64,000 bases of DNA from Clostridiaceae bacterium (lineage in GTDB: Bacteria > Bacillota > Clostridia > CAYPLH01 > DUMO01), in contig DUMO01000051.1 in assembly GCA_012839865.1 (NCBI GenBank), positions 1 through 64,000 on the forward strand, read 5' to 3'. Shown in pieces: positions 24,770-28,957 of the stretch. Position 1 is the first letter of the stretch; every line of letters begins with the position of its first letter. The translations under genes were made by a program, and so were the position numbers. The notes under the pieces were generated by a model that had not been told where the DNA came from, did no database searches, and saw only the letters and a program-made list of their open reading frames with translations.

Positions 24770-25516
24770 TTATCTTATGATTCTCTCAATCAACGTCATT
24801 CGTGTTGCTTTTTCAAGAGAATCATCCAACGGGGATAAAGAAGAAAAATCAGGGTATTTTTCTTTCAGGGCAAGTGTGAGTAAGTGGTCTGCCAATTCAT
24901 GATTTTTGGGGAGCAGGCTTCCATGGGCATAGGAACAGAATACATTCCTGTATCTTGCGCCTTCAAAACCATCCTGCCCGTTGTTGCCAAAACCCTTTAC
25001 CACCCGTCCCAGGGGCTCGACTCCTTCACCCAGGTAAGTGTACCCCGAGTGGTTCTCAAATCCTACTATTTTCCCGTCAAACGTATCACTTTTAAGAAAA
25101 TCGCATTCAAATACGATATCTCCGGTCAAACGTTCCCTGCCTTCAATGGTCCATAAATCAAGGGCTCCAAGAAACTCAATTTCTTTTCCCTCCAGGGTTC
25201 TCAAGTACATTCCAAGCATCTGGTATCCACCGCCAATGCAAAGAAAAACCTTGTTGTTTTCTATGGCAGACCTGATTTCATTGCCTTTTATATCAATAAA
25301 ATCCTTCCGGATTATTTGCTGCTCATATTCCTGACCGCTTCCTAAAACAACAATATCATATTTCTCCGGAACAAAGGGCTCATCCAGGGTCACATTTATT
25401 ATGTTTACAGAAATATTCCTCCACAGGGCGCGTTTGGACAGGGCAATAATATTTCCCCGGTCTCCGTTGTAATTCAATAAGTCAGGGTATAATACACAAA
25501 TATTTAAACTGTACAA
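24770..25516 (-). CDS. gatD: Lipid II isoglutaminyl synthase, glutaminase subunit GatD
   Basis: A 248-residue class-I glutamine amidotransferase of the CobQ-like type. It supplies ammonia to MurT, which amidates D-Glu in lipid II to D-isoGln. The catalytic Cys sits in FLCIGGGYQMLG, and the catalytic His in YAHGSLLPKNHELAD; ENHSGYTYLG is also family-typical. The start is TTG 25516 behind GGAGG. It is the second gene of a murT-gatD pair, 175 bp after murT on the same strand, which confirms the function because the two proteins form a complex. Confidence 0.93.
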   Translation of the reverse strand: MYSLNICVLYPDLLNYNGDRGNIIALSKRALWRNISVNIINVTLDEPFVPEKYDIVVLGSGQEYEQQIIRKDFIDIKGNEIRSAIENNKVFLCIGGGYQMLGMYLRTLEGKEIEFLGALDLWTIEGRERLTGDIVFECDFLKSDTFDGKIVGFENHSGYTYLGEGVEPLGRVVKGFGNNGQDGFEGARYRNVFCSYAHGSLLPKNHELADHLLTLALKEKYPDFSSLSPLDDSLEKATRMTLIERIIR

Positions 25517-25691: not shown

Positions 25692-27395
25692 CTATTTCCA
25701 AAACTCCCGAAGGCCGAACTTTTTCCTGAGTATGCTTCTTATATCAAGCATTGCCGAATAATTCGGGAGGATATAGAAGCAGTTTCCGGCATTAGTTTTT
25801 GAAAGCCCGTTGTCCAGCAGCAAGCCATAATCTTTCATAATCGAAATCCTGCCTGGGTCGATGCCGCCATACTTGAGCCTTAATGCCACATCCTCAGCTC
25901 TTGTGCCCGATACATAAAATTTGCTGATTTTGTTTTCAATCTCTGACAGTATTTCGAAATCCACATCCCATAGCCATGAAATGTCCGTACCGTCGGCAAG
26001 TTTATCATTTATTGCAAAAGCAAGCACAAACTCCTTTTCTTCGGATAAAAGAAAGTTCAGGACCTGGTTCAAGCCTGCCGGATTCTTAACAAGAATGACT
26101 TTAATTAATTTATCATCAGCCTTAATGGTTTCCATTCTTCCAAAGCTGCACTCACATTCCGAAAGAGCTGCCACTGTATTCTCCAAAGGAAGGGAAAGGG
26201 CTTGTCCGCAAGCTATGGATGCTAATGCATTATACACATTGTAAAGGCCGGGAAGGTTTATTTTTGCTGTATGCTTTAAAGCTTTCTTTTCATATTTTGT
26301 CATGCCTGTTGATAGTGCTTCCAAACCGGTCCCATTTTCCGGTGAAGACGCATGCATCCCTTGAGTTGTTACTTCAAAATCCATGATTGTATAGGATGCC
26401 TTCATCTCCCTGACATAAGTGCAAACGACTTCTGCAAAAGGTCTTTCAAACCCGCAGTTGTCGCACCTGAACCAGCCAAAATGTTCATAGGTTCGGCTTT
26501 GGTAGGTGAATTTATTATTACAGAATATACAGTACATAGCCCCACCGGTCTCATCCTTTACAGGTTTTTCACCTGTCCTGTTTTTTACTGAAGTTTCACT
26601 GGGTTCATCTTCTACCAGCACTGTACCGGACTTGTTTTTTACAGGTGTTTCACCAGTCTCATCTTCTTTCGATGCTTCACAGGGCTTGCCTTTTACCGTT
26701 GCTTCATCAGACTCATCAATTACCAGTGCTGCCATTTCACCTTTTACCGCCATTTCACCGGTCTTGTCTTTTACCGTTGTCCCATCGCCCTTGTTTATAA
26801 AGCCAGCCAAAGCATTTACATCAAATCCATAGTAAATTTTCCTGCCATCATATACTTTGCCCAGGGAAGCGCACAGAGGATCGTCCCCGTTTAAAACCAG
26901 AATGGTCTTATTAAGGTTTTTGATTCCTTTCTTCACATTGTCAACTATTTTATATATGGACCCGTATCGGTCAAGTTGGTCGTTGAAAAAGTTAGTTACA
27001 ACCAATATGTCCGGCTCAATGAAATTGCTGATTAAAGCAAATGCTGCATCATCTATTTCAAGAACGGCTGTTGAATATGGGCATTTTCCTGACAGGGGAA
27101 CCGACTCTATGAAAGTTGATATAATACCCCCCGGAAGATTTGCGCCGGACCGGTTTGCAATATATTTAATGTTGTTTTTTTGCAGTATTTCCCCGATAGC
27201 TTTCGTTGTTGTGGTCTTTCCGTTTGTACCGGTTACCATGATTATTTTAAATTTTTCAGCAATAATTCCGGCAAACCGGGGATATATTTTCAGGGCAATT
27301 TTCCCGGGCAGGGAAGTGCCGCCACGCTTAAGAAGCCTTAGAATCAGCATTACGGTTTTGCAAATAAACAATGTAATTTTGAACATTAAATTCAT
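25692..27395 (-). CDS. murT: Lipid II isoglutaminyl synthase, Mur-ligase subunit MurT (with repeat insertion)
   Basis: A 567-residue Mur-ligase-like protein that activates the D-Glu carboxyl of lipid II for amidation by GatD-derived ammonia. N-terminal hydrophobic stretch, then the ATP loop VTGTNGKTTTTKAI, NRSGANLPGGI, VLEIDDAAF and VTNFFNDQLDRYG, then a C-terminal DUF1727 domain. A Cys4 zinc ribbon (YCIFC at 288-292 and RCDNCGF) is present, as in characterised MurT. Known MurT proteins are about 430-450 residues. The excess here is largely a run of about ten 9-residue repeats at residues 199-287, immediately before the ribbon. ATG 27395 follows AGGAG. It is followed by gatD and divergent from the murA-ftsZ region. 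Confidence 0.93.
   Translation of the reverse strand: MNLMFKITLFICKTVMLILRLLKRGGTSLPGKIALKIYPRFAGIIAEKFKIIMVTGTNGKTTTTKAIGEILQKNNIKYIANRSGANLPGGIISTFIESVPLSGKCPYSTAVLEIDDAAFALISNFIEPDILVVTNFFNDQLDRYGSIYKIVDNVKKGIKNLNKTILVLNGDDPLCASLGKVYDGRKIYYGFDVNALAGFINKGDGTTVKDKTGEMAVKGEMAALVIDESDEATVKGKPCEASKEDETGETPVKNKSGTVLVEDEPSETSVKNRTGEKPVKDETGGAMYCIFCNNKFTYQSRTYEHFGWFRCDNCGFERPFAEVVCTYVREMKASYTIMDFEVTTQGMHASSPENGTGLEALSTGMTKYEKKALKHTAKINLPGLYNVYNALASIACGQALSLPLENTVAALSECECSFGRMETIKADDKLIKVILVKNPAGLNQVLNFLLSEEKEFVLAFAINDKLADGTDISWLWDVDFEILSEIENKISKFYVSGTRAEDVALRLKYGGIDPGRISIMKDYGLLLDNGLSKTNAGNCFYILPNYSAMLDIRSILRKKFGLREFWK
26535..26801 (-). repeat. 27-bp in-frame minisatellite within murT
   Basis: Ten consecutive units, nine of 27 bp and one of 24 bp, encode the nonapeptides FINKGDGTT, VKDKTGEMA, VKGEMAAL, VIDESDEAT, VKGKPCEAS, KEDETGETP, VKNKSGTVL, VEDEPSETS, VKNRTGEKP and VKDETGGAM. 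The consensus is V-K-(D/N/G)-(K/E)-(T/S)-(G/S)-E-x-(P/S/T). Frame is kept throughout; units have diverged, so the expansion is not very recent. The result is a charged, probably disordered linker. Confidence 0.9.
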
Positions 27396-27535
27396 AATAA
27401 ACTCCTGATGGATAATAAGTTAAACACTCTTTTACTTTCTGGCTTGCAATACATTATAGATTATAGCACAACGAATACCAAACACATACAAGTTTCCTGA
27501 TGGAACAGTGTGTTTTTATGCTTCACAAGGGAAGG

Positions 27536-27806
27536 GCAGGAGGCAATCGGGGGGACTGGAAGAATTGTCCCCATGGTTCCACATGGGAACCGCAGGAGGC
27601 AATCGGGGGAACCGGAAGAATTGTCCCTATGGTTCCACATAGGAACCGCAGGAGGCAATCGGCGGGGGACCGGAAGAATTGTCCCTATGGTTCCACATGG
27701 GAACGGCAGGAGGCAATCAACAGGGGGACCGGGAGAACCGTCCCCATGGTTCCAAACGGGAACCGCAGGAGGCGGCAATCAGCGGGAACCATCCCCATGG
27801 TTCCCC
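27536..27806. repeat. GC-rich palindromic tandem array (56-59 bp units)
   Basis: Five units starting with GCAGGAGGC(GGC)AATC at 27536, 27592, 27648, 27706 and 27765 (spacing 56, 56, 58, 59). Each unit contains two inverted repeats: GGGGAC...GTCCCC (spaced by GGAAGAATT or variants) and GGTTCC-ACAT-GGAACC. It is G-rich on the plus strand, unlike its surroundings. Because the period is not a multiple of three, it is not coding; ORFs across it are frame-shifting copies of the same unit. Confidence 0.9.
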
Positions 27807-27991: not shown

Positions 27992-28957
27992 ATGTATACA
28001 TTTAGCTTAAGTGACAATAGACTTACCCATCCGGGTGGATGTGAAATTGGTCCGCGCCCTATAGATCTCCACATTAAGGCGTTCAGAAGTATGGGGGTTA
28101 AGGTTACTGAAGCTATTCATGGCTTTTTGTATTGCGAAGCCGAAAAATTAAAAGGATGTGATATACTACTCAACTATCCCAGTGTCGGTGCAACTGAGAA
28201 CATTATGCTTGCTTCAGTTTTCGCCGAAGGTGAAACAACCATCAGGAACGCAGCTAAAGAGCCTGAAATCAAAGATCTTCAGGATTTTTTGGCGGCAATG
28301 GGTGTTGATATAAAAGGAGCAGGTACAAGTATAATCCGTATTAAAGGCAACAAGAAGAAATTAAACAGGGTTGAACATAAAATTATTCCCGACAGAATTG
28401 TTGCCGGAACTTATTTGATTGCTGCGGCAATAACCGGCGGGGAACTGCTTCTTAAGAACACAATTGCCGAGGACTTGAGTTCGGTTATTCACAACTTAAG
28501 AGATAGTGGGTGTAAAATTTGTTCCACCGACTCTACAATTTATATAAAAGGGCCAACCAGGCCAAGAGCCATCGATACGATAAGAACACATCCTTATCCC
28601 GGATTTCCTACAGATATGCAGGCACAAATGGTAACATACTTGTCTGTGGCAGCAGGAACAAGTATAATGGTGGAAACGGTATTTGAGAACAGATATATGT
28701 ATGTTGAAGAGCTTAACAAAATGGGAGCAAATATAAAATTAGAAGGCAGAGTTGCATTAATCATCGGTGTACCCAAACTGACAGGTGCAAACATCAACGC
28801 CCGGGATTTGAGGGGAGGAGCAGCCCTTGTGCTTGCTGGCCTTTCCGCAGTTGGGACTACAGTAGTAAACGGAGTTCACCACATTGACCGCGGGTATGAG
28901 TCTATTGAAACAACACTAAAAAAAGTCGGGGCAGATATCGAAAGAATACAATCATAA
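27992..28957 (+). pseudogene. murA: 5'-truncated murA (UDP-GlcNAc 1-carboxyvinyltransferase)
   Basis: 321 residues that match MurA from about E. coli residue 110 to the C-terminus; full MurA is about 420. Present are PGGCEIGPRP with the PEP-binding Cys (residue 17 here; Cys115 in E. coli), SVGATENIMLA, FPTDMQAQ with the catalytic Asp, ETVFENRYMYVEELNKMGA, DLRGGAALVLAG and HIDRGYESIE. Missing is the first part with the substrate-binding Lys22-Asn23 (GAKNA) and Arg91, so it should be inactive alone. An in-frame TAA lies 12 bp before the ATG, and the upstream region holds a tandem array. The rest is an intact open frame with no internal stops. It could be a recent deletion remnant or an expressed fragment; a full murA is expected elsewhere. 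Confidence 0.75.

Follow-up and report, generated by a model that had tools for sequence, protein, structure and literature searches.

In a 64,000-nucleotide stretch of a Clostridiaceae draft genome (89 contigs, 3.7% estimated contamination), here called the window, the gene of the ligase subunit MurT carries an in-frame array of diverged 27-bp repeats directly before its Cys4 ribbon. The array is predicted to form a disordered loop that disturbs neither the catalytic fold nor the ribbon, and it has most likely grown by slippage and is tolerated in a drifting enzyme copy that is under relaxed or changed constraint. The GatD partner of this MurT has lost its nucleophilic cysteine, and a second, canonical murT-gatD pair exists in the same assembly.

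Anatomy of the array and its predicted disorder

The murT gene (25692..27395, minus strand) encodes 567 aa with a Mur ligase middle domain (PF08245, Mur_ligase_M, 68.3 bits), the Cys4 ribbon and a MurT_C domain (PF08353, 118.8 bits), and the top structures in a Foldseek search are MurTs, with those of streptococci and S. aureus as the closest solved ones. Judging from the sequence, the protein is thus MurT, the ligase subunit of lipid II isoglutaminyl synthase, and an activity in lipid II amidation is presumed. It keeps the GTNGKT Walker A motif (G56-T62) and D471, the equivalent of S. aureus D349, both in invariant columns, and the ribbon (26439..26531, minus strand) is intact with C289, C292, C311 and C314, also in invariant columns.

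The array covers residues 199-287 (26535..26801, minus strand) and abuts the ribbon, in the position and frame that had been given in a preliminary description of this DNA. Of the ten units counted there, nine of 27 bp and one of 24 bp, eight 27-bp units and the 24-bp unit stand, and the remaining one, FINKGDGTT (26775..26801, minus strand), is seed-like at best. The nine units read VKDKTGEMA, VKGEMAAL (the 24-bp unit, 26724..26747, minus strand), VIDESDEAT, VKGKPCEAS, KEDETGETP, VKNKSGTVL, VEDEPSETS, VKNRTGEKP and VKDETGGAM. At lags of 27, 54, 81 and 108 the DNA identity within the array is 0.51, 0.56, 0.51 and 0.50, whereas most other lags give about 0.3. None of 20,000 codon shuffles reached any of these four values, so the periodicity is beyond chance. 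The array escapes Tandem Repeats Finder at score 30 owing to the divergence of its units, which are only about 44-74% alike. With a profile built from the eight 27-bp units and scored over the murT gene body and the window, these units obtain 26-33 bits against their own profile and FINKGDGTT 6.1 bits, more than any other in-frame position of the gene outside the units. This value is reached at none of 459 gene-body positions and at 19 of 127,946 positions in the window, a number that includes the eight units and FINKGDGTT. The peptide thus resembles the repeat only weakly and is no clear tenth unit, and the proposal that it is the ancestral loop from which the array grew gains a little from this score, making it a possible seed.

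The array is poor in hydrophobic residues (9% FYWILM, versus 33% in the rest of MurT), net acidic (20 D/E versus 13 K/R), and strikingly uniform in its codons at unit positions 1, 6 and 7 (GTA, GGT, GAA). Comparison from unit to unit gives a pN/pS of 0.68 (bootstrap 0.44-1.17), which is indistinguishable from neutral and, as the interval includes 1, compatible with both neutrality and weak constraint; selection on the array peptide was thus not supported by the unit comparison. A 54-bp higher-order unit with alternating charge was not significant (permutation p 0.18), DNA hairpins as drivers of the expansion had weak signals (z -2.1 on the coding strand, -0.9 on the other), and an Rfam search of the region for RNA structure gave no match. 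Genome searches found no copies of the array elsewhere; its sequence occurs once, which rules out a dispersed or mobile in-frame element of the type of the Rickettsia palindromic elements (reviewed in PMC10969869). With these it shares that an in-frame extra peptide is tolerated in a housekeeping enzyme, but it is tandem, single in the genome, and neither mobile nor dispersed. It also resembles the intragenic tandem repeats coding for disordered segments of a published census (PMC7230257) in its short in-frame unit and predicted disordered product, but unlike those it is found in a cytoplasmic enzyme of cell-wall synthesis, within a loop that permits insertions, and not in a surface protein.

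AlphaFold2, run on an alignment of 59 MurTs, predicts a confident core (378 residues at pLDDT 90 or above, pTM 0.81) with an intact ribbon, most of which has a pLDDT >90. Over most of residues 201-283 the pLDDT is about 26-41 without secondary structure, which speaks against a folded insert domain, and runs below 50 occur only at residues 201-283, 348-358 and 360-366. The latter two belong to a second disordered loop after the ribbon (residues 348-366, 26298..26354, minus strand), within a lengthened segment of 57 aa versus the usual 22-36, and repeats tested for in this loop were not significant. The disorder of the suggested "disordered tether" is thus in line with the prediction, while for a selected tether, as for the suggested regulation of the ribbon or the GatD contact, there is no positive evidence. 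With the solved MurTs of S. aureus (PDB 6GS2, 6H5E, 7Q8E), S. pneumoniae (6FQB) and S. pyogenes (9SQ9, 9SQJ), the protein has in common the middle domain with the Cys4 ribbon insertion, MurT_C, Walker A, the D349-equivalent Asp and the gatD neighbour, but about 80 additional, disordered residues precede its ribbon and about 25 additional ones follow it.

Ribbon-flanking loops in other MurTs

A normal MurT length of 430-450 residues, as had been assumed, is slightly low for this clade, in which open frames are mostly about 450-480 residues long. In 128 MurTs, the pre-ribbon segment was measured from about ten residues before the end of the YYG strand to the first CxxC. It has 23-29 residues in 120 of them, 32-72 in seven others, and 105 in the MurT of the window. 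The nearest MurT in the tree, that of locus L018 (SH-aLRT 90), has 26 residues, and this sister together with all near relatives stays within 26-29, so the insertion is lineage-specific, as judged among 60 relatives searched that are all outside its genus and family. The proposed comparison with related MurTs therefore argues against a folded insertion shared by the whole clade.

After the ribbon, the segment is longer in L018 (83 residues) and in L057 (87 residues) than in the MurT of the window. L057 (6001-7599) has a 21-bp tandem array there that was matched in 0 of 2,000 shuffles, L042 has a 7-bp period after the ribbon (P 0.0025), and L023 (1538-3127) has a 27-bp period before the ribbon that is marginal and uncorrected (P 0.04). 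The MurTs with lengthened ribbon-flanking loops are scattered over the tree, and the sites therefore look recurrently and permissively expandable. Both loops appear to lengthen repeatedly in unrelated MurTs, at times as tandem repeats, which looks like a permissive site. The ribbon itself has been described as an exposed, variable insertion with an unclear role (PMC6113224; PMC6085368).

A GatD without nucleophile and a second pair

The gatD gene (24770..25516, minus strand; 248 aa) adjoins murT and encodes the glutaminase subunit. In the alignment of homologues its codon GGC (25232..25234, minus strand) encodes Gly95 where the catalytic Cys, C94 in S. aureus GatD, would stand: the protein reads FLCIGGGYQ, whereas nearly all homologues have ICGG(Y/F)Q or a closely similar motif with the Cys preserved. 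The nucleophile by which a GatD-MurT amidotransferase depends on glutamine is thus replaced by Gly95, while the His of the catalytic pair (H189 in S. aureus) is retained in SYAHGSLLPKN. At five more positions the protein deviates from a residue shared by at least 90% of homologues (H8V, Y17N, F57V, G60S, P206H); of these, V57 is shared with L018. From a reading of the YGD motif, Y17 probably corresponds to Y30 of S. pneumoniae GatD, the Ala mutant of which keeps 7% activity (PMC6085368). In S. aureus, a laboratory C94G mutant has Gly at the same position; its use of glutamine is abolished at pH 7.5 and 8.5 and its use of ammonia is left at pH 8.5, but at pH 7.5 ammonia is used by neither the wild-type nor the C94G complex (PMC3266927). 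Unlike in that mutant, the change in the window is natural and is accompanied by Y17N, G60S, P206H and H8V.

MurT has diverged as well. It ends a branch of 0.61 in the tree and differs at 20 of 150 clade-conserved positions, versus 3 in its sister L018 and 10 in the second MurT of the genome. Against a special state of this copy, some other members of the clade have at least as many such departures, namely 23 (L089), 29 (L092) and 30 (L093). One of the 20 is Asp116, which replaces the Glu that binds Mg in S. pneumoniae MurT (Glu113). At near-universal positions the protein deviates in only 2 of 64 cases, and as the frame is open and Walker A, D471 and the ribbon Cys residues are kept, it is still under selection, so that some function of the loop is possible.

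The second pair lies on contig C7 (L157, 11418-13688) next to purC-purB-purA-purF-guaA (pur gene names assigned by eye), with a pre-ribbon loop of 27 residues and a GatD in which all conserved residues are present. The pair in the window is the one at the ancestral place, as murT adjoins murA-ftsQ-ftsA-ftsZ in about 15 relatives, and its MurT is the more divergent of the two. The assumption of the preliminary description, that the insertion sits in an essential amidating enzyme, is thus not supported in its ordinary sense, given the GatD without nucleophilic Cys, the divergence of this MurT copy and the canonical state of the other pair. C7 probably belongs to this genome, although the estimated contamination leaves some doubt: purB was found only there, the other guaA-like gene, on contig C1, is without a glutaminase domain, and the composition of C7 is similar, so that contamination as its source was set aside and C7 looks native without being proven to be. 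The gene on C1 (L160, 1498-2508) is a free-standing GuaA-like ATP-pyrophosphatase part without the amidotransferase half, and it adjoins a gene resembling corrinoid-system methyltransferases (family assigned by eye).

Taken together, these observations suggest an in-frame growth of a 27-bp minisatellite, in this lineage only, in an exposed loop between YYG, the strand with which the first part of the middle domain ends, and the first knuckle of the ribbon. A 27-bp loop segment would have been duplicated and then have grown by slippage or unequal recombination, for which the anatomy of the array and the 24-bp unit speak. The product would be about 80 acidic, hydrophobic-poor, disordered residues that the fold tolerates, since the site is permissive and constraint on the pair at the ancestral locus would be relaxed or altered. 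The latter is inferred from the substitutions in GatD and MurT, with the GatD nucleophile lost and a canonical second pair at hand. The C7 pair would then carry the normal amidation, and the array would be near-neutral. The loop is probably tolerated and not useful, as the copy that carries it is drifting and has a partner that has lost the catalytic Cys.

Of the other explanations, the one that survives best holds that selection maintains the array as an acidic tether of tunable length. By releasing the ribbon or attracting a partner, the tether would adjust the contact of MurT with GatD in an amidating complex that has been repurposed, for instance to depend on ammonia. The ribbon Cys residues contribute to GatD association in S. 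pneumoniae, as found with a 4C4S mutant (PMC6085368), the NH3-dependent activity of the S. aureus C94G complex means that a Gly95 GatD could serve as scaffold (PMC3266927), and the intact frames, the kept catalytic residues of MurT and the uniform codons would fit too. Such a tether is nevertheless unlikely, as no such insert is conserved in relatives, the pN/pS is compatible with neutrality, no secondary structure is predicted in the array, and the lack of ammonia use at pH 7.5 holds for the wild-type as for the C94G complex. Somewhat less likely again is that the whole pair consists of pseudogenes on their way out, with the array as one of several degenerative changes. The loss of the nucleophile and other conserved residues in GatD, the 20 changes in MurT and the second pair on C7 would agree with decay, but neither gene has a frameshift or premature stop, 62 of the 64 near-universal MurT positions are kept, and the matches to the GATase_3 and MurT_C profiles lie well above cut-off. 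GatDs without the Cys are also seen in three genomes with a single detected murT, namely L092 and L093 with Ser and L100 with Gly, and the loss of the Cys therefore need not mean decay. For the same reason an ammonia-dependent reading is kept, and there is a slim chance that MurT with its array and the Cys-less GatD form a repurposed complex without glutamine use, ammonia-dependent or regulatory, in which the loop acts at the ribbon or recruits a protein of cell-wall synthesis or cell division. A sequencing or assembly artefact, which the draft status with its contamination estimate and a further tandem array nearby might suggest, is highly improbable, as the units look too diverged for an easy collapse or expansion in assembly, the frame is kept throughout, and the locus order agrees with about 15 relatives.

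Half of a two-piece MurA beside murT

The further array is intergenic (27524..27773), lies upstream of murT between it and murA, and consists of 4.4 copies of a 56-bp unit with 87% matches. It carries GTCCCC- and GGGAAC-like segments and has only short matches elsewhere in the genome.

The murA gene of the window (27992..28957, plus strand), divergent from murT, is only a C-terminal piece that begins at the catalytic-Cys loop and is without about residues 1-110 of MurA. The N-terminal piece lies on contig C64, where an open frame of 171 codons follows ftsW (L171, 9887-10363, minus strand). The same split of this MurA paralogue was found in all 12 further genomes tested, from four families (loci L200-L219), with N-pieces covering about positions 1-115 of the profile and C-pieces about 97/112-417; in residues, the C-piece spans about 111-419. 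Where both lie on one contig their distance varies between about 11 and about 600 kb, the N-piece after ftsW or murG and the C-piece beside ftsQ, and intact full-length genes of the EPSP-synthase family coexist with them. The N-piece keeps the lysine of GxKN and the C-piece keeps GGCE(I/L)GPRP (GGCELGPRP in genomes G365 and G135), FPTD and DLRGG, the residues of which, from E. coli MurA, we take to be the active site; both pieces together therefore hold the active-site residues.

The sequence after the junction of the N-piece is complementary to that before the junction of the C-piece (inverted repeats). Own partners match better than swapped ones (23.1 versus 17.7, permutation p 0.0005, n=10, in a test that takes the genomes to be independent although they are only partly so), and in 5 of 10 rows the own pair is not the top-scoring one. 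By reading, no ATG, GTG or TTG precedes the GGC motif of the C-piece in the frames of G311, G365 and G135, so that several C-pieces seem to have no start codon before the catalytic loop. The genes between the two pieces differ between the two genomes read, in neither of which a recombinase is obvious by eye between them, and an Rfam search for introns gave no match. A mobile element with terminal repeats as cause of the split was rejected, as the putative repeat occurs only at the two junctions, with one 2-mismatch match elsewhere. Candidate readings are a two-chain (split) enzyme, RNA trans-splicing and a programmed DNA rearrangement; a literature search found no description of a two-piece MurA.

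As a repeat array alone, the array in murT is ordinary, and the two-piece MurA with its co-varying junctions is probably of greater interest. What the murT array adds for the family is that the ribbon-flanking loops of MurT can accept long disordered insertions around a ribbon of unclear role, and that a natural counterpart of C94G beside a canonical second pair lets one ask about the function of MurT on ammonia and about the purpose of the ribbon.
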